Assembly (NCBI GenBank): GCA_017451025.1
Contig: JAFSSM010000008.1
Location: forward strand, 1 to 64,000
DNA length: 64,000 bases
DNA from: Synergistaceae bacterium
Lineage (GTDB): Bacteria > Synergistota > Synergistia > Synergistales > Aminobacteriaceae
Direction: 5' to 3'
The notes beneath the pieces are model-generated. The model worked only from the letters and a program-made list of their open reading frames with translations. It had not been told where the DNA came from and did not search any database. Of the stretch, positions 32,681 to 43,494 are shown one piece after another. A program made the position numbers and the translations under genes. Within the stretch, counting starts at the first letter, position 1. Each line of letters starts with the position of its first letter.

Positions 32681-32710
32681 TTGCAATAGAATCATTACAT
32701 TAGCTATAAT
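32681..32710 (+). promoter_or_regulatory. Promoter of the binding-protein/permease fusion gene
   Basis: A -35 TTGCAA (32681-32686) and a perfect -10 TATAAT (32705-32710) are separated by 18 bases. The expected start lies near 32717, just before the direct repeats. Confidence 0.7.
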
Positions 32711-32755: not shown

Positions 32756-32772
32756 TAGGAGGTAAAACTATC

Positions 32773-35112
32773 GTGAAACGTTTCACACGTATATTCTTCA
32801 CGGCACTTCTTGCACTCCTGATGTGTGCGTCTCTAGTCATGGCTCAGGACGCAGACTCCCCCTCAGCTCCGGCAGAGTCCGCAGGCTGGAAGTTCGACCG
32901 TCCCATCACCATTGTTTGCCCGTGGGGTGAAGGCGGCGGAGCAGACGCAACACTTCGCGCGCTTGTTCCAATCATCAAGGCAGCAACAGGCCAGGAGATT
33001 AATGTAGTCAACGTTACTGGCGGCAACGGTGTAAACGGTGCATCGTATGTCCGCGAACAGCCCGCAGACGGCTACACGTTCATGCTGGGAACACAGAGCC
33101 TGCTCATTCAGGATGTCATGGGTGAGATGAAGTTCAAGTTCCTGAACGAGTTTGTGCCTGTCGCAAGACTGGTCCACGCAATTGACGTTATCGCAACTTC
33201 GCGTTCGGCTATGGAGAAACACGGCTTCAGGGCCTTCAACGAAATGCGCGACTACATCAAAGATCACCCCTTCAGCATCAGCGTCGGAATGCTTACCAGA
33301 GTAGGCGTTGACGGCTTATCGTTCCAGCAGGCCACGAAGGGACTGAATATCCTTGAAGTCGATTACCCGACAGGTGCAGGAATGACAGGTGCACTTCTCG
33401 CCGGACAGATTGACCTTATGATTACTGGTACTCAGGAGATCGAGGCTCAGATTCAGACAGGCGAAATTATCCCGATGCTTGCTCTCTCAGAAAAACGCAT
33501 GAACCGTTACCCGAATGTTGAGTGCTCAAAGGAACTGGGCATAGCGGCGTATTTGGGATCTGAGCGCGGAATTTTCGCGAAGAAGGGCACTCCGCAGGAA
33601 GCTATTGATGCACTCGGAGCAATAATCGCCGAAGGTGTGAAGACTACAGAGTGGAATGATTTCCTGCAGCAGGGCGGCTATGATGAGAGACCCGGTTTTG
33701 CCCCAGCCGCAGAGTACCAGAAGGCTCTTGATGAAGAGTACAAGTCATTCACCGACATGCTGAAGCCCGCCAAGTCTTCCGACAAGAAAGCCGCCGCCGC
33801 TCCTTCAACAAAACTTGCGGTAATCGGTTTCCTTATGGTGTTAGTGCTGATAGTCTGCCTCATCAAGAAAATCATTATCCCGCCGATCGCGTTCATTCTT
33901 CTTCCGACAATAGCGGCACTGGTTGCAGGATTTGACCCGCTGGTCATCAACAAGTTCGCGGCTTCCGGAATCAGCAAGATGGTATCTACCGTGTCGCTGT
34001 TTGTGTTCTCGATTTCGTTCTTCTCGCTGATGAGCGATCAGGGAGTGTTTGACCCGGTCGTCAACTTCCTCATCAAGAAGGCAGGAACGAACGTAACGCT
34101 CGTCCTTCTCGCAACTGCGGCTGTGGCAGTAATCGGACACCTTGACGGTTCAGGAGCTACGACATTCATCATCACGATTACGGCAATGCTTCCGCTGTTC
34201 AAGAAGCTCAAGATGGACAACAGGGCGTTAATGATGCTCATCTGCGTTGCAATCGGAGTTATGAATGTCTGCCCGTGGGGCGGCCCGACTATTCGTGCGG
34301 CAACAGTCCTCGAGACAGACCCCAATCTGCTTTGGCACAGGCTGCTTCCGGTTCAGGGTGCAATGCTGGTTATAACATTTGCGATTGCGATTCTGCAGAG
34401 CGGCATTCAGAGGAGACGCATCAAGAAACTCGGTCTCACTGCTGATGATACCGTCGAAGAGGCAGCTGCTGAGGAAGCAAAGGGGCCGAAAGTTTCTACA
34501 GCCCTTCAGTGGTACAACTTCCTGATTGTCGTTGCGGTTATCGCTATCCTTATGATGGGACTGCTCAACCCTGCGTACACGTTCATGCTCGCTCTTGCGC
34601 TCACTCTTCCGTTCAACATCAAGTCCCTCAAGGAGCAGAACGGCAAGCTCAAGAATTACGGAGTTGCGGCAATGTCGATGGTCGTTACGCTGTTTGCGGC
34701 AGGAATTTTCACCGGAGTGCTTTCCGGAACAGGAATGCTTAACGCGATGGCCAGTGCAGTTGTTACGATAATCCCGCCGGATCTTGGCCGCTACACTCAC
34801 TTCATCGTGGCGTGCTTCGCAGTTCCCCTCATTATGTGCTTGGGCACGGACAGCTTCTATTTCGGACTTCTGCCCGTCGTTGTGGGGATTGCCTCGCAGT
34901 TCGGCGTGAACCCGATGGATGTTGCGTGCGTGCTGCTCGTTGCTGAGAACGTCGGCGTAATGATTTCCCCGCTTTCACCAGCAATGTACTTAGGCTTAGG
35001 ACTTCTTGAGATCGACGTAGGCGAACACATCAAGTACTCGCTTGTGTGGATTTGGAGCGTGAGCCTTCTTGCGATTGCGGCCTGCATAGTTCTGGGAGTT
35101 ACTCCGCTGTAA
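32773..35112 (+). CDS. TctC-type solute-binding domain fused to a CitMHS-type permease
   Basis: A 779-residue protein. After a signal peptide (residues 1-24), residues 40-340 are a Bug/TctC-type binding protein (RPITIVCPWGEGGGADATLRAL; VNVTGGNGVNGASYV; QPADGYTF). These normally work as separate proteins with TctA/TctB for tricarboxylates. After a Lys/Ala linker (about 340-350), a hydrophobic permease with about 11-12 helices runs to the end. It resembles CitMHS citrate transporters (GHLDGSGATTFIITITAMLPL; CPWGGPTIRAA; SPLSPAMYLGLGL). The start is GTG 32773 with AGGAGG 9 bases upstream. Citrate or another carboxylate is the likely substrate; the fusion as a one-chain transporter is inferred. 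A terminator follows. Confidence 0.9.
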   Translation: MKRFTRIFFTALLALLMCASLVMAQDADSPSAPAESAGWKFDRPITIVCPWGEGGGADATLRALVPIIKAATGQEINVVNVTGGNGVNGASYVREQPADGYTFMLGTQSLLIQDVMGEMKFKFLNEFVPVARLVHAIDVIATSRSAMEKHGFRAFNEMRDYIKDHPFSISVGMLTRVGVDGLSFQQATKGLNILEVDYPTGAGMTGALLAGQIDLMITGTQEIEAQIQTGEIIPMLALSEKRMNRYPNVECSKELGIAAYLGSERGIFAKKGTPQEAIDALGAIIAEGVKTTEWNDFLQQGGYDERPGFAPAAEYQKALDEEYKSFTDMLKPAKSSDKKAAAAPSTKLAVIGFLMVLVLIVCLIKKIIIPPIAFILLPTIAALVAGFDPLVINKFAASGISKMVSTVSLFVFSISFFSLMSDQGVFDPVVNFLIKKAGTNVTLVLLATAAVAVIGHLDGSGATTFIITITAMLPLFKKLKMDNRALMMLICVAIGVMNVCPWGGPTIRAATVLETDPNLLWHRLLPVQGAMLVITFAIAILQSGIQRRRIKKLGLTADDTVEEAAAEEAKGPKVSTALQWYNFLIVVAVIAILMMGLLNPAYTFMLALALTLPFNIKSLKEQNGKLKNYGVAAMSMVVTLFAAGIFTGVLSGTGMLNAMASAVVTIIPPDLGRYTHFIVACFAVPLIMCLGTDSFYFGLLPVVVGIASQFGVNPMDVACVLLVAENVGVMISPLSPAMYLGLGLLEIDVGEHIKYSLVWIWSVSLLAIAACIVLGVTPL

Positions 35113-35134: not shown

Positions 35135-35173
35135 AAATGCCGTTGTCTGTGAAAATGGACGGCGGCATTTTTG
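35135..35173 (+). terminator. Terminator of the transporter fusion gene
   Basis: A 13-bp stem (35135-35147 with 35158-35170, wobble pairs included), a 10-base loop and a short T run that abuts the next gene. Confidence 0.8.
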
Positions 35174-35945: not shown

Positions 35946-36578
35946 ATGATGAAAAAGTATCTTTGGGCTTTAGTGCTTCTTGTTGCAATATGCCCGTGTG
36001 CTCATGCCGCAATCAACGAAGCTACAGTCGAACGTGCCTGGAAGAAAATCGCCAAAGCTGACGGCTTCAAGACAATAGCTGTTACATACGTGGACGATGC
36101 CTCGCCGAATGCGTGGGTAGCCTTCAAGTCCGCCGACGACTTCACCATCAACGTAACGCGCGGCCTGATGAAGATTCTGAACACTGAGGAAGAGATGGCC
36201 GGTGTGTGGGGCCACGAGATAGGCCATGTCAGGCTCGGACACTACAACAAAAGCCAATGGCGCAATGTCGGCTGGAACATCGGAAGCGCAATTCTCCAGA
36301 AGAAGACCGGCCAGATTGGGCAGACGCTCGGAGCTGTGGGAATGAACCTCGCAGAAAACGGTTTTTCCCGCCGCCAGGAGACCCAGTCCGACGAATACGG
36401 AGTGAAGCTGCTGGTGAAGGCAGGCTATAACCCGATGGGCCTCTACAATGCGATGAAGGCCTTCAAGGATAACGGTTACGGCACGAAGTCGGGCATCACT
36501 AACTGGTTCAGCACACATCCGGCAACTGATGACAGGCTAGCGAAACTTCAGGAGTTCGCGGCCAAGTACGGGAAGTGA
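35946..36578 (+). CDS. Exported M48-family metalloprotease, copy 1
   Basis: A 210-residue protein with a signal peptide ending in AHA (residues 19-21). Zinc site HEIGH at residues 90-94, third ligand in SDEYGVKLL, and the downstream STHPATDDRL typical of M48. It consists of the catalytic domain only, without membrane helices. About 100 residues share an almost identical layout with copies 2 and 3 (LMKILNTEEEMAGVWGHEIGHVRLGHYNK). Ribosome site AGGAGG lies 9 bases upstream. Likely periplasmic. It may act on envelope proteins, as BepA and LoiP do in other bacteria. Confidence 0.93.
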   Translation: MMKKYLWALVLLVAICPCAHAAINEATVERAWKKIAKADGFKTIAVTYVDDASPNAWVAFKSADDFTINVTRGLMKILNTEEEMAGVWGHEIGHVRLGHYNKSQWRNVGWNIGSAILQKKTGQIGQTLGAVGMNLAENGFSRRQETQSDEYGVKLLVKAGYNPMGLYNAMKAFKDNGYGTKSGITNWFSTHPATDDRLAKLQEFAAKYGK

Positions 36579-36583
36579 TTCGC

Positions 36584-37204
36584 ATGAAGAAGAGAATAAT
36601 TTTTGCGGTTATGTTTTTGCTGTGGAGTTCGTGTGCATTCGCCGCAATCTCTGAGGATGTAGTTCAAGCGGCTTGGGCGAAAATTTCTAAGGCTGACGGC
36701 TTCAAGACTGTACCCATCACCTACGAGAAGGACACTTCGCCGAATGCGTGGGTGAAGTTCAAGTCGCAAAAGGACTTCAGCGTTCACGTAACGAAAGGGT
36801 TGATGAAGATTCTGAACACTGAAGAACAGATCGCCGGAGTACTTGGCCACGAAATAGGGCACGTCAGACTTGGCCACTACAACAAGGGAGTCGGACGAAA
36901 TATCGGCTGGACGGTTCTGGGGTATGCACTCGGCAGAGCCGGAGGGATTGCTCAAGCTGTCGGAAGTGTTGGAATGAATCTCGCGGAGAGTGGTTTTTCC
37001 AGAGGCCAGGAAGTCGAGGCCGACGATTACGGCACTGAATTGCTGAAGAAGGCAGGGTATGACCCGATGGGACTTTACCGCGCGATGAAGGCCTTCGCCG
37101 ATAACAAGTATGTTACTCAGCCCAACGGATTCAACTCTCATCCGCCGACTGCCAGAAGATTGAAGCACCTTATGGATAAAGCTAAGGAGGTACGCGGAAA
37201 TTGA
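36584..37204 (+). CDS. Exported M48-family metalloprotease, copy 2
   Basis: A 206-residue close paralogue of copy 1, also with a signal peptide and only the catalytic domain. HEIGH zinc site, EADDYG third-ligand region, and SHPPTARRLKHL near the end. I chose ATG 36584, six bases after the previous stop; GTG 36575 would overlap. The tandem arrangement and similarity indicate duplication. The last codons overlap the TTG start of the Synerg-CTERM gene by 4 bases, so the three genes form one coupled unit. Confidence 0.93.
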   Translation: MKKRIIFAVMFLLWSSCAFAAISEDVVQAAWAKISKADGFKTVPITYEKDTSPNAWVKFKSQKDFSVHVTKGLMKILNTEEQIAGVLGHEIGHVRLGHYNKGVGRNIGWTVLGYALGRAGGIAQAVGSVGMNLAESGFSRGQEVEADDYGTELLKKAGYDPMGLYRAMKAFADNKYVTQPNGFNSHPPTARRLKHLMDKAKEVRGN

Positions 37205-40200
37205 CGGCAAGAAAATTTGCGCTGGTAGTTGTGATGCTGCTGGCCTGTGTCTCGTGTGCATTCGGCGCAACCTATAACATCAGCTCTTATGAACAGTTCA
37301 GGACTTACATGCTCGACGAAACCTACACCAGCGACGCAAGCAGCGTGTTTGTCCTGAACACGGACATCCAGCTTGCAGGCTATAGCAACTGGCCGGGAAT
37401 TGGCAGCAGTGCTTCTCCGTTCAGGGGACGCTTCAACGGCAACGGGCACAAAATCTACGTGAATATCCACCCTCTTCCGCCAACAGGAGCATCCTACAAG
37501 CCGATAGCCAGCGACAGGGCATTATTCGTGTATGTCGGCGAAAATGCACTTATCGAGAACCTCAAGGTTGAAGGCAGCGTTTACGGCTACAATGCCGGCG
37601 GAATTGCGTCAATAGTGGACGGCGGAACAATCACGAACTGCAGTTTTTCGGGCGACGTTGAGGCAGTTACGCGAGAAGGCGACGACAGAATCGCCAAGCT
37701 CGTACTTGAACTCGATGATGACCAGATCGAAGGTGCAGATGACATTGAGCGTTTCGACACCCTGACTTCACACTCAACTCATAGAGGAAGGATTAACGCA
37801 GGCGGTCTCGTCGGAGTGCTTGAGAAAGGAACTATTTCCGAGTGCAGTTTTCGGGGTACGGTTAATGCTTCGTCGAATGAGACTTATGCAGTGGCGGGAG
37901 GAATAGCCGGAAGATTCTTTGAGGGGAGTATTTCGAGCTGTGATGTGGTCGGTGATTCCAGCATTGAGGCTTCAACTGTAACTACAACGAGCAGTTCCTT
38001 CGCAGAGGCCGGAGGAATTGCAGGGTATGCGGTTACTCCGCTGGACAGCACAATAGAGTACTGCACGTTTGAGGGCAGCGTCGAGAGTACATCTTACGCC
38101 GGAGGAATTGCAGGGTATGTTCGCGGGACGGAGCTTTACGGAAATTCCGTGCTGGCTAATTCTGACGTGGCAGGAGCTTATTCCGCAGGAGGAATTGCCG
38201 GGTATCTTGCTTCGGGAGGAACTGCGACGAGCAACGACGTGGAAGCAGGAGCTATAGTCATTGCGGATTCGTACAGTGCCGGAGGAATTGTAGGCTATCT
38301 TGACACAGGCGGGCAGGCAGTCGCGAATAACAATTCAGACGCGGCAATCAGGGGAAATGCCAGCTACTTGGGCGGAATAGTCGGAGCACTCAGCAACAGC
38401 ACGAACGCAAACTCAGCAGTCGGTACGGGCAACACCTACAGCGGAGCAGATGCCGGAATAGGCCGCGACGAGTACAACCGTTCAACTGACGGTAACACTA
38501 CACCAAAACAGGACGTAACCTACTCGATAATCACGGCAAGCCTGGCAGAAGCAACAGTAGGCGTGAAGTATGAGGCCAAGCTCGAGACGAATGCGGCTCA
38601 GACCAGAACTGTAACTTATGCTTACAGCGGCACGCTTCCCGGCGGCCTGAATTTCGGGGCTAACGGTGTAATTGCCGGAACTCCCACCGAAGCGGGAACG
38701 TTTGCCTTTTCGGCGCGCGGCAACATCCAGAACATAGGCTACACCGACAGCAAAGATTTCACGCTGACCATCACAAAAAAATTCGAGATTACGCCGGAAA
38801 TAGACAGCGAACTTAGCGCAACAGAAGGAGCATTTTTTGAGCAGGTATTTTCCGCCACAAACGGAGCAGTCCTCTCAGCCAAAGGCAGCCTTCCAGCAGG
38901 AATAACAGCCACACACCCGGCTTCGCAGTCAAGCATCACGATTTCAGGCTATCCGCAAAAATCCGGGACGTACACGTTCAGCGTTGAGGGTACGAGCGGC
39001 GATGTTACAGCCAGCACCGGGACAATTACGCTCATTGTGAATCCGGCGATAGAGTTTGCGACTACGGCACTGAGTCCTGCTTCTGCGGCTAGGGGCACAG
39101 ATTATTCTGCGGGTCTGGAAGTCTACCTGAACATTCCCAGAGATTCACTTAATGAGAACAGCCTTGTGTGGAGCATCTCGAGCGGTACGCTTCCCGGAGG
39201 GCTGGCAATATCCGGAGGATTAAGCGGAGGCAGAATTTCGGGTAAGCCCGCGCGTACAGGGGAATTTACTTTTACGGTGAAGGCGGAGCTGAGTTTCACG
39301 GCAGGAACTACGGCGATGAAGACTTCTGTTACGGAGGAATTTAGTTTGACGGTTGAAGAAAGTTCCGACGTAACACCGACCACGCCGACAAGTTCCGACA
39401 CAACGCCGACGAGCGGAGATACCACAGTAACCAGCGACGACGAAACTGTGTACGGAATGAGCATCACGACCGACTCACTGCCCGACGGCAAAGAGGGTGT
39501 TGCGTATAAATCCACGCTCGAATCTACAACGTCGTATTACACGAACGAAGTAACGTGGAGTCTGGCCGCCGGGACTCTGCCTCCAGGATTATCACTCGAT
39601 ACTTACGGCACAATCTCAGGGACTCCGACACGGGCAGGCGAATACACATTCAGCGTCAGGGCACAGCAGGTACGGAGTTATCGTTATGGCGGCAGCTACA
39701 CAGTCTCGGGCAGAAAGAGACTCACAATTACGATTGAGCCGGAGTTCATGATAGTTACAGACGCAGAACTGGACAGCGCAAAGGTCGGCGAATATTATTC
39801 CTACACGCTGCTCACGGACAGAACGCAGCACCTAACGGTCAGGTGGACTCTGCTCTCAGGAGACCTTCCGGCCGGATTAACCCTTAACTCTCAGAACGGG
39901 ACTATCTCCGGAACTCCGACAAAGGTAGAAATTTCCACGTTCACCATTCAGGCGGCGGCGGGGAACTTTCTGGCGGTCAAGCAGTTCACGTTAGCTGTAG
40001 GGCCTGCTATTGAGATTACGGACACCAGCCCTTTGGAGAACGGCAAGGTAGGGGCGGAATACACCCACACGTTCAGCGCAGACACGCAATACCCTGTGCG
40101 CTGGACGCTGGAGAACGGGACTCTGCCTGATGGTCTGAGGTTTTCGGATGGTGTGCTCTCCGGGACTCCTACGGATGACGGCGAATATACGTTCACGCTT

Positions 40201-41709
40201 GGGATCGAGAGCGGCGGCATGAGTTCGAGCAAGGAGTTCACCCTAACGATTGACTCTGCTTTGACGATAACTACAGAAGCGGTTCTGCCTGCCGGCAGAA
40301 TCGGAAAACCTTACTCCTTAACGTTTCAGACTGATGCGGTAAACACTAGTGCAGTTCTTTGGTCGGTAGGGTATTACACATTAACGGAAGAAGAAACTCA
40401 GCGTAATTATTATGGTTCTCTTCCTTCCGGAATGTATATTGAGGAGACAACCGGAACAATTTACGGTACTCCCTCGAGTAATGGCATTCACAGATTTACC
40501 GTTCATGCTGTTATGGGAAATTTCTCCGCTTCAAAAGTCTTCACGCTCAACGTGAGGCCCGTTTTGGAGATACTAACAGAAAGTCCACTTCCTCATGCAG
40601 ATGTCAATGAACTATACCGTGTGACTCTGATTGCCGACTCAGAAGAAAGCCAGGATGTAACCTGGTCAGTAACCGGCGGAAATCTCCCGCAAGGTCTTAC
40701 TCTCGACAAAGATAGCGGCTTAATCTCCGGCTATCCTATGAACGAAGGCGAATATACATTCACGGTTGAAGCTTCTTGGAATGGTCTAACTGTCTCCAAA
40801 AATTTCACGCTGACTGCCGGGCCGATAATGAGCATCACCACCGACGGAGTTATCCCTGTCCTCGATGCTGGAGCCGCGTTCACGCTCTCGCTTGAGACCG
40901 ACAGGCCAAGCACAAATTCTGTCTGGTCGCTGAAGGACGGAAGACTCCCTCCTGGTCTCTCGCTCGACGCATCAACCGGCGTAATTTCCGGTACACCAGT
41001 CCGTGCAGGAACGTACACATTCGTGATTCAGAACGTCTCGGGCTATTCTGAGGCGGTCAAGGAATTTACGCTGATGGTCGGTTTCGTGATCACGACGGAG
41101 GTCTATCTTCCGAGCGGAACTTCCGGCAAAAGCTACAGCTACAGGTTCACGGCGGACGGCGTAAGTTCTGGAGCAGTTCTGTGGTCTGCATCTCAGGATG
41201 TCTTCCCGACCGGAATAACACTCGGAACTGACGGACTGCTCTCCGGAACGACAAACGAGGCAGGAACTTTCAGCTTTATGGTGAGTGCGTTCGTGAGCAA
41301 TGACGTTTACGCGCAGAAGTTCGTAACGCTGACGATAAGCTCATATTCAACTCTGCCGATAGTAACTGCAGAACTTCCGGACGGCCAGGTAAGTCAGGAC
41401 TATTACGCAGAAGTCAGGAGCACTCTGGAAGGAGTTGTGTGGTCTCTGGCTGACGGTGAACTGCCTCCTGGTTTGAGCCTTAACCCTCAGGGCGCAATTT
41501 TCGGTGTACCTTATGAGGCCGGGACATATTATCCGGTCATTCAGGGTACATCAGGAACACGTACCGGCTCAAAACGTTTCGTAATAACGATTGCGGCGGA
41601 ACCGGCATATGCCGAAAATACTTCTTCTGGCGGCGGCGGAGGAGGCTGTAATTCGGGGTTGGGAGTGTCGATGCTTTTGCTCTTGGCCGGATTATTCAGG
41701 AAACGTTAG
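37201..41709 (+). CDS. Very large surface protein with GLUG-type repeats, Ig-like repeats and Synerg-CTERM signal
   Basis: A 1502-residue exported protein. The start is TTG 37201 with AAGGAGG 10 bases upstream and a signal peptide ending CAFGA. Residues 30-420 form a beta-helix-like region with repeats of the form AGGIAGYV, similar to GLUG motifs of bacterial surface proteins. From about 440 follow roughly ten Ig-like He_PIG repeats of about 90 residues (LPPGLSL, G.ISGTP...GTYTF). A Thr/Ser-rich linker lies near residue 725. The end SGGGGGGCNSGLG, a hydrophobic run and FRKR is a Synerg-CTERM signal. An adhesin or surface-layer role is likely. It is coupled to two M48 protease genes. Confidence 0.92.
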   Translation: MTARKFALVVVMLLACVSCAFGATYNISSYEQFRTYMLDETYTSDASSVFVLNTDIQLAGYSNWPGIGSSASPFRGRFNGNGHKIYVNIHPLPPTGASYKPIASDRALFVYVGENALIENLKVEGSVYGYNAGGIASIVDGGTITNCSFSGDVEAVTREGDDRIAKLVLELDDDQIEGADDIERFDTLTSHSTHRGRINAGGLVGVLEKGTISECSFRGTVNASSNETYAVAGGIAGRFFEGSISSCDVVGDSSIEASTVTTTSSSFAEAGGIAGYAVTPLDSTIEYCTFEGSVESTSYAGGIAGYVRGTELYGNSVLANSDVAGAYSAGGIAGYLASGGTATSNDVEAGAIVIADSYSAGGIVGYLDTGGQAVANNNSDAAIRGNASYLGGIVGALSNSTNANSAVGTGNTYSGADAGIGRDEYNRSTDGNTTPKQDVTYSIITASLAEATVGVKYEAKLETNAAQTRTVTYAYSGTLPGGLNFGANGVIAGTPTEAGTFAFSARGNIQNIGYTDSKDFTLTITKKFEITPEIDSELSATEGAFFEQVFSATNGAVLSAKGSLPAGITATHPASQSSITISGYPQKSGTYTFSVEGTSGDVTASTGTITLIVNPAIEFATTALSPASAARGTDYSAGLEVYLNIPRDSLNENSLVWSISSGTLPGGLAISGGLSGGRISGKPARTGEFTFTVKAELSFTAGTTAMKTSVTEEFSLTVEESSDVTPTTPTSSDTTPTSGDTTVTSDDETVYGMSITTDSLPDGKEGVAYKSTLESTTSYYTNEVTWSLAAGTLPPGLSLDTYGTISGTPTRAGEYTFSVRAQQVRSYRYGGSYTVSGRKRLTITIEPEFMIVTDAELDSAKVGEYYSYTLLTDRTQHLTVRWTLLSGDLPAGLTLNSQNGTISGTPTKVEISTFTIQAAAGNFLAVKQFTLAVGPAIEITDTSPLENGKVGAEYTHTFSADTQYPVRWTLENGTLPDGLRFSDGVLSGTPTDDGEYTFTLGIESGGMSSSKEFTLTIDSALTITTEAVLPAGRIGKPYSLTFQTDAVNTSAVLWSVGYYTLTEEETQRNYYGSLPSGMYIEETTGTIYGTPSSNGIHRFTVHAVMGNFSASKVFTLNVRPVLEILTESPLPHADVNELYRVTLIADSEESQDVTWSVTGGNLPQGLTLDKDSGLISGYPMNEGEYTFTVEASWNGLTVSKNFTLTAGPIMSITTDGVIPVLDAGAAFTLSLETDRPSTNSVWSLKDGRLPPGLSLDASTGVISGTPVRAGTYTFVIQNVSGYSEAVKEFTLMVGFVITTEVYLPSGTSGKSYSYRFTADGVSSGAVLWSASQDVFPTGITLGTDGLLSGTTNEAGTFSFMVSAFVSNDVYAQKFVTLTISSYSTLPIVTAELPDGQVSQDYYAEVRSTLEGVVWSLADGELPPGLSLNPQGAIFGVPYEAGTYYPVIQGTSGTRTGSKRFVITIAAEPAYAENTSSGGGGGGCNSGLGVSMLLLLAGLFRKR

Positions 41710-41753: not shown

Positions 41754-41817
41754 GCGCGCATCTTGCTAATTGGGCTATAATGTGGCACATTCACAAATCA
41801 GGAGAGACATTAAAACT

Positions 41818-43494
41818 ATGCGCAAAATTTCAGCAGGAATAACACTAATAATTATGCTGTGTTCAAGTGCTCATGCATCAATTAGCCGTGAAGTAGTTGA
41901 AGCGGCGTGGAAAAGGATGACGGAAGCGGATGGTTTTCCTCAAGTTCCGATAAATTACGAGAATGATTCTTCAGCGAACGCATGGGTGAGGTTCAGGTCT
42001 CAGAATAATTACACTGTCCACGTAACGGCAGGTCTAATGAATATACTGAACAACGAGGACGAAATGGCCGGAGTCTGGGGTCATGAAATTGGACATGTCA
42101 GGTGCGGCCATTACACTAAGGATGTCAGCAGGGCGCAAGGGTGGAATGCTTTAGGTGCAGCTTTGGGCACTCTTGGAGGGACTGGCGGAGCTGTCGCGCA
42201 GGCTGCAGGCGGTGTAGGAATGGAACTTGCGGAACAGGGATTTTCTCGCGGAGAAGAAGTAGAAGCTGATGATTACGGCGTAACACTTCTCAAAAAAGCA
42301 GGGTATGACCCTTACGCATTGTACCGTGCAATGAAAACTATGGCAGATAACGGAGTTATAACTCAGCCGAGCGGATTTTCTTCGCACCCGCCGACCGAGA
42401 GGCGTTTAGTTCATCTGCAGGATAAAGCTCAAGAGGTCAGCGGAATAACCGCAGCTTCGCTTCCGGAAGAACCTGCGAAAAAAAGCACGGCCAAGCCCCG
42501 CACAGCACGTTCCTCACGTTCTGCTGTTGCCTCGAAACCGAAAACTACAAGCATTGCGCCGAAGCCTGCCTCAGAGCCGGAAACAGCAAGCCCTGTTAGA
42601 GCATCAAGCCCTGCGGTAGCGACACTGCAGGCATCTCCCCGCCCGGCAATCACTACACGCACTGCCTCGCGCCCATCTGCAACCCGGACATTAGCTGAAC
42701 GTCCAGCAGCAGCAGTCCCGGTGTCCGAACGACTCACAGTTCAGCCCGGAGGAGTCAGGCTTGAAGGAGCACGTACATATTCCGGTGCAGTAATCGGTGC
42801 TTACCAGAAAGTTTATGCTATGAACTTTGAGGTCTGGAAGCCCGCAGACCTACCAGCAGGATGGTACGCAACCTTCGACGGATTCCCTGTCGCGCAGATC
42901 GCCGAGAACAGGTGGGTCTACGGCCAGCTCGGCATTGACGGAGCAATTCACCCTACTAATATTCTTGTCGGGTCAGTAGTTCCGTCGAGCGTACCGGGAA
43001 TTGCCCGCGTCGCCGCAGTCTGGAGTTACGGCAAGGCTATTGATTCTAAGGAGTTCCAGAGAATACGCGACATGATGTGCAACCGGATGGGCTGGCTCAA
43101 CGATAATTACGTCAACACGATTATTGCCTGGCACACAAACAGAATCGGTGTGTGGGTGTGGCTCGGAGACCGCTGGAAGAGATTCGAACCGAGAAGCGGC
43201 GAATACACATGGCAGATGCTCAAGCGAGTCAGTCCCTACATTGCGGACGAACTCAGGAAAAATCATGCGTGGTATCAGGGCGGTGAACCTATGGAGATTG
43301 CTGACTTGGCCAGGCAGTGGGGCTATATCTGGAGCGGAAGGGTTATTCTTCAGAGCTTAAAGGCTTTCAAGGACAGCGGAGGCGACAGAACAGAACGTGT
43401 AACGTCGATGCGCGAGTCGAGTCCTTCCGGCGGAGATAACAGCCAGACACCGCAGGAACCCGAGCAGAGTTCCCCGCAGTGGGATGTGGATTAG
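41818..43494 (+). CDS. Exported M48-family metalloprotease, copy 3, with linker and C-terminal domain
   Basis: A 558-residue protein starting at ATG 41818 (GGAGAG about 12 bases upstream, signal peptide ending AHA); an earlier start would only add sequence from the promoter region. The first 210 residues repeat copies 1 and 2, with HEIGH and EADDYG. A Lys/Ser/Ala/Pro-rich linker of about 100 residues follows. The last 250 residues form a domain with many Trp (VWVWLGDRWKRFEP) that I do not recognise. The linker may span peptidoglycan. It leads a plus-strand run of genes: this gene, a TPR-like gene, a Lon-type gene and nth. Confidence 0.9.
   Translation: MRKISAGITLIIMLCSSAHASISREVVEAAWKRMTEADGFPQVPINYENDSSANAWVRFRSQNNYTVHVTAGLMNILNNEDEMAGVWGHEIGHVRCGHYTKDVSRAQGWNALGAALGTLGGTGGAVAQAAGGVGMELAEQGFSRGEEVEADDYGVTLLKKAGYDPYALYRAMKTMADNGVITQPSGFSSHPPTERRLVHLQDKAQEVSGITAASLPEEPAKKSTAKPRTARSSRSAVASKPKTTSIAPKPASEPETASPVRASSPAVATLQASPRPAITTRTASRPSATRTLAERPAAAVPVSERLTVQPGGVRLEGARTYSGAVIGAYQKVYAMNFEVWKPADLPAGWYATFDGFPVAQIAENRWVYGQLGIDGAIHPTNILVGSVVPSSVPGIARVAAVWSYGKAIDSKEFQRIRDMMCNRMGWLNDNYVNTIIAWHTNRIGVWVWLGDRWKRFEPRSGEYTWQMLKRVSPYIADELRKNHAWYQGGEPMEIADLARQWGYIWSGRVILQSLKAFKDSGGDRTERVTSMRESSPSGGDNSQTPQEPEQSSPQWDVD

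Follow-up and report, generated by a model that had tools for sequence, protein, structure and literature searches.

TctC proteins have been described both as subunits of TctCBA and as orphans (reviewed in PMC5812351). TRAP and TTT were the only secondary carriers known to use a binding protein until 2025, when a TAXI binding protein was reported to be paired with GltS and, in Lachnospiraceae, fused to it (PMC12344293). That a binding protein can be recruited by another secondary carrier is already known from this work. Its authors proposed that receptor use is made possible by an elevator mechanism and wanted further classes as a test (PMC12344293). In a literature search that covered papers outside subscription, TAXI-GltS was the only published analogue found for a receptor-carrier fusion, and no paper was found that treats TctC and CitMHS as one system. 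Here, we describe a gene that joins a TctC receptor and a CitMHS carrier in one chain. It is this combination that appears to be new, and from its sequence it looks like a new class of receptor-assisted transporter.

The gene lies in a 64,000-nucleotide stretch of DNA (contig JAFSSM010000008.1, Synergistaceae bacterium), which was analyzed as a whole and is referred to as the window. In the window sequence it is an open frame with a GTG start (Table 1). Pfam placed TctC (PF03401) on residues 71–305 (E = 1.3e-18, 67.9 bits; cut-off 27 bits) and CitMHS (PF03600) on residues 366–724 (E = 1.1e-20, 74.5 bits; cut-off 31.9 bits). The NCBIfam model for citrate:proton symporters, TIGR00784 (citMHS), matched residues 348–776 over model positions 2–427 of 431, with 270.2 bits against a cut-off of 259.7 bits. 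The first-pass annotation of this DNA had read one intact frame composed of a signal peptide, a TctC domain and a CitMHS-type permease, and the 779-residue frame and the three profile matches, all over cut-off, confirm that reading. The matching families in Pfam and NCBIfam are thus TctC and CitMHS, and neither TAXI nor GltS. The permease region gave, in addition, a secondary end-to-end match to DctM of TRAP transporters (E = 9.8e-7, over the Pfam cut-off). Neither tctA nor tctB, nor a gene for a DctQ-type subunit, is present at the locus. Because the gene has its own AGGAGG, a promoter-like site and a strong hairpin right after the stop codon, it is probably transcribed alone, as a single-gene unit.

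Table 1. Features of the fusion locus (window coordinates) and tandem-TctC genes of the same genus (locus coordinates)
Feature	Position	Strand	Basis
Promoter-like site TTGCAA-18-TATAAT, sigma-70-like	32681..32710	+	Consensus scan, 10/12 matches; alone no proof of function
Shine-Dalgarno AGGAGG, 10 nt ahead of GTG	32757..32762	+	Sequence
TctC-CitMHS fusion gene, 779 aa	32773..35112	+	Pfam and NCBIfam; kept in 32/43 genus genomes
Sec signal peptide, aa 1-24, VKRFTRIFFTALLALLMCASLVMA	32773..32844	+	Sequence; n-, h-, c-region pattern common to homologues
TctC/Bug receptor domain, about aa 41-331	32893..33765	+	PF03401; predicted fold
Flexible Ala/Pro/Lys linker, 16 residues, aa 332-347	33766..33813	+	Indel-variable in homologues; pLDDT < 50
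CitMHS-type permease, aa 348-779	33814..35109	+	TIGR00784; start = solo CitMHS start (alignment)
Terminator-like 16-bp hairpin, then T-rich tail	35135..35170	+	-23.9 kcal/mol, z -6.2
Tandem-TctC genes in G076/G078	L138 2903-5635 (+); L140 331-2994 (-); L139 2133-3956 (+)

A scan of genome contigs returned 27 further fusion loci with 70–88% identity, hosted by uncultured Synergistaceae ("Fretibacterium") from the digestive tracts of goat, deer, sheep and reindeer or from unnamed metagenomes. When 188 Synergistota genomes were searched, the fusion turned up in 32 of the 43 that belong to the genus of the window (rumen Synergistaceae, "Fretibacterium"), whereas the 145 genomes outside this genus had none; among the 32, at least one fusion is ended by a contig edge, and one genome has two copies. 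Many homologues therefore share the two-domain order. All are free of stop codons, and dN/dS against the window gene was roughly 0.03–0.15 for the receptor and permease halves alike, values that, with synonymous sites near saturation, are rough. By this measure both halves are under purifying selection. In the homologue alignment, mean column identity was 0.92 for the permease and 0.78 for the receptor and was low for the signal peptide, and the Ala-, Pro- and Lys-rich linker varied in length. The source genome is a draft assembly of 62 contigs, which might suggest that the architecture is an assembly artefact or a chance read-through. However, the same uninterrupted architecture recurs in at least 30 other species, whose genomes were assembled independently. 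This rules out an assembly joint or frameshift in the linker near position 33790, a risk raised in the first-pass annotation, and, with the low dN/dS and the gene's own start and terminator signals, it leaves the probability of an artefact vanishingly small. Chance is excluded as an explanation.

A Sec-type signal peptide is common to all fusion homologues. Solo CitMHS proteins start straight at the first helix, with positive residues after it (e.g., MMLLAAIGFVMVLLLVFCLVTKR in L074), and the fused protein has the same first helix, KLAVIGFLMVLVLIVCLIKK, immediately behind the linker. No extra helix was seen at the junction, which in the alignment coincides with the point where solo CitMHS proteins naturally begin. 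The positive-inside rule predicts that this N-terminus lies outside, so that an exported receptor could be joined to it without an added helix. The earlier proposal of a receptor held outside and tethered to its carrier thus agrees with the topology predicted from the signal peptide, the absence of an added helix and the position of the junction. In the AlphaFold model, the TctC fold is confident (pLDDT about 80–90 in blocks) and has TM-scores of 0.85–0.87 against BugD, MatC and TphC; the linker is disordered (Table 1). The permease model, for which close homologues only served as input, was poor (mean pLDDT about 40–45), and its fold is unreliable. A search with the CitMHS profile found no related PDB structure, and a scan of viral contigs for distant CitMHS found none. 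The match of the fused permease to DctM points to an ancestry common with a binding-protein-using carrier family; an elevator fold is conjectural. A weak match to the dctM model TIGR00786 was also given by a CitMHS of another genome of the genus (G060).

In the trees, all fused receptor domains form one clade (100/100), which lies beside the TctC of tctCBA operons from the same genus and near relatives. All fused permeases also form one clade (100/99), and their nearest relative is the solo CitMHS of G160 (L074, 54% identical). The simplest reading of these trees is a single fusion event within the rumen genus lineage, in which a CitMHS gene would have been joined once to a copy of the citrate-type TctC found in that lineage. 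Two apparent cases were rejected: a candidate fusion on contig C40 of G081 (query 15–362, one TAA) consists of the TctC and then the TctB of an ordinary tctCBA operon, and a long frame on C20 of G105 is citF followed by CitMHS.

Other arrangements of these families were seen in the genus. G060, which is without the fusion, carries an unfused CitMHS gene (7806–6508) and a TctC gene (6492–5503) separated by 15 nt (L063 5503–7806, minus strand). This pair belongs to another CitMHS subfamily and another TctC branch than the fusion, and is an independent unfused version of the pairing. G076 and G078 encode proteins of 910, 887 and 607 residues with two or three tandem TctC domains and no permease, and the two genomes have 11 and 14 TctC matches versus 1 and 4 TctA matches, respectively. 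The window's own genome has, on contig C50 directly behind a GntP permease gene, a CitMHS gene that is missing about the first 50 residues, which contain the first helices (L003 1594–2640, plus strand); it is probably degenerate or misassembled.

The citD, citE and citF genes (citDEF) encode citrate lyase. All six tctCBA operons of this TctC type that were traceable over enough sequence run on into citD-citE-citF (L112–L117; L116 overlaps L080). In the window's own genome, tctCBA and citEF pieces are found on separate contigs (L002 close to one end of C62; L118 at the start of contig C8), which is consistent with the same operon having been split by assembly. Solo CitMHS relatives of the permease adjoin citDEF in G105 (L066) and G120 (L068). 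Relatives of both halves are thus linked to citrate independently, and because of this linkage to citrate lyase, citrate or a close tricarboxylate is strongly indicated as the ligand. The neighborhood of the fusion gene was uninformative as a guide to substrate: it consists of asd-hom-lysC on the opposite strand and M48 peptidase-like genes, and citDEF does not adjoin. In the window, three M48-peptidase-like exported proteins, named from sequence (35946–37204 and 41770–43494), flank a 1502-residue protein with repeated Ig-like stretches (37201–41709), and these genes stand next to the fusion in many species.

Twelve genomes have citrate lyase and are without a citrate-type tctCBA; nine of them carry the fusion and one (G060) the unfused CitMHS-TctC pair. 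In eight genomes (G051, G052, G063, G072, G079, G080, G082 and G083), citrate lyase has no adjoining tctCBA, no other citrate-type TctC is listed, and the fusion is present in every one; the contig of G052 stops just behind citE, leaving the genes upstream unseen. G076 also has the fusion, together with a more distant TctC beside citDEF. The latter is an orphan (44% identical, 391 residues; L095 3402–4577, minus strand) that immediately precedes citDEF, and neither TctA nor TctB intervenes. Citrate lyase, fusion and tctCBA are missing alike from G058 and G069, as judged for the lyase by citF. In G046 and G084, citF is present with none of the three candidate importers, but the G046 assembly is also without the neighboring asd gene, and the completeness of G084 is 74%. 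Since these genomes are drafts, such absences are soft.

The candidate pocket motifs of 31 fused TctC sequences were compared with those of 16 tripartite (citDEF-linked) ones. The fused receptor keeps nearly all of them (PW.GGG.D, GTQS, GML-T, YP.G, GT.E and RG), and three positions differ in charge. Position 53 is V in 16/16 tripartite sequences and E in 29/31 fused ones, position 203 is E in all 16 and G or S in all 31, and position 264 is A or W in 16/16 and E in 29/31. The three positions probably lie in cleft-facing loops, and their changes may, we speculate, serve docking to the new carrier or binding of metal-citrate. They could also point to a protein that works in the same manner on another ligand, such as tricarballylate, aconitate, isocitrate, a C4 acid or a metal-citrate that the tripartite system does not recognize. 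A different ligand would suit a gene that is not beside citDEF, and it would suit the coexistence of fusion and citrate-type tctCBA in 23 of the 32 fusion genomes, where redundancy would need explaining. Nevertheless, all other compared pocket motifs are common to the fused and the citDEF-linked receptors, CitMHS relatives adjoin citDEF, and nine genomes with citrate lyase show no citrate-type importer other than the fusion. We regard such a different ligand as possible, though unlikely.

The reading that we favor, and which we consider fairly probable, is that the fusion is a tethered, binding-protein-assisted secondary importer of citrate (or a near tricarboxylate) in one polypeptide. The signal peptide would export the TctC domain to the periplasm, where the domain would bind citrate, or else a tricarboxylate much like it, possibly complexed with a metal. 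Tethered by the linker, the receptor would stay next to the mouth of the carrier in its own chain and pass the ligand on to that carrier, which would move the ligand inward by cation/proton symport. Citrate lyase would then split the imported citrate. The fusion would in this way back up or replace the three-gene tctCBA system. That uptake would depend on the receptor we infer from architecture and conservation only.

The TctC domain could instead be an accessory scavenger or sensor, added to an ordinary CitMHS permease that does not need a receptor. Most solo CitMHS genes are not accompanied by a TctC gene, which speaks against a general receptor need of the family; even those that adjoin citDEF (L066, L068) are without an adjacent receptor gene, and conservation is higher in the permease than in the receptor. 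Against this stand the invariant pocket motifs of the receptor in the 31 compared sequences, its low dN/dS, and the finding that most fusion genomes without tctCBA show no free citrate-type receptor gene. Moreover, the fusion and the pairing in G060 arose separately, from different CitMHS subfamilies and TctC branches, and we find an accessory role rather doubtful. Every genome of the genus keeps at least one TctA, which would allow the fused TctC mainly to serve a TctA/TctB pair encoded elsewhere, with the CitMHS part mostly an anchor. This arrangement is very improbable given that nine fusion genomes are without citrate-type tctCBA, that the permease is the more conserved half, and that the charge differences between the fused domain and tripartite TctC are fixed.

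A plasmid search for other TctC-CitMHS pairs found one place in 72,556 records, on plasmid NZ_CP025064.1 of Roseomonas mucosa, where TctC is followed by CitMHS after a gap of 363 nt (L085 5911–8553). The cluster also holds HMG-CoA lyase, CoA transferase and a second TctC. As support for the pairing this is weak, given the size of the gap and the large number of TctC genes that such genomes contain. On a Bosea plasmid (L106 4091–7056) and a Sphingomonas plasmid (L108 1242–5296), CitMHS is clustered with a binding protein of the SBP_bac_6/8/11 type; neither stretch has an ABC permease or ATPase, and the Sphingomonas stretch also has a porin O/P gene. These clusters are possibly another receptor-CitMHS pairing.

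The TctC-CitMHS fusion would be a further receptor-carrier class of the sort that the TAXI-GltS authors ask for (PMC12344293). It offers a natural one-to-one receptor-carrier complex in a single chain. Its solo CitMHS relatives can serve as controls, which opens the contribution of the receptor to the carrier to direct testing. For a group of uncultured rumen bacteria, the fusion is also a likely route of citrate uptake. The first-pass annotation had proposed a new binding-protein-dependent carrier made from parts of two systems; the composition is supported and the dependence inferred, whereas the principle has a precedent in TAXI-GltS (PMC12344293).

Compared with TctCBA (TTT, TC 2.A.80), the fusion has a receptor of the same family, which in the tree is sister to the TctC of tctCBA-citDEF operons in the same genus. 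However, its membrane part is a CitMHS protein in the receptor's own chain, and since it is without TctA and TctB it is no TTT member. It matches the CitMHS citrate:cation/proton symporters (TIGR00784, PF03600) at full length and over the curated cut-off, and its nearest solo relative (L074) is 54% identical. Known members stand alone, whereas the fusion carries an exported receptor domain ahead of the first helix, and it is no ordinary CitMHS carrier. With TRAP transporters (DctPQM, TAXI-QM) it shares secondary transport that depends on a binding protein, here as predicted, and a full-length permease match to DctM, but it has no DctQ-type subunit, its receptor is TctC rather than DctP or TAXI, and its carrier is CitMHS. 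TAXI-GltS (PMC12344293) likewise has an N-terminal binding protein and a C-terminal secondary carrier whose family members otherwise act alone, and is rare and concentrated in one bacterial group, with unfused pairs elsewhere. In contrast, TAXI and GltS are other families, the parts are unrelated to those of the fusion, and the ligand is glutamate.
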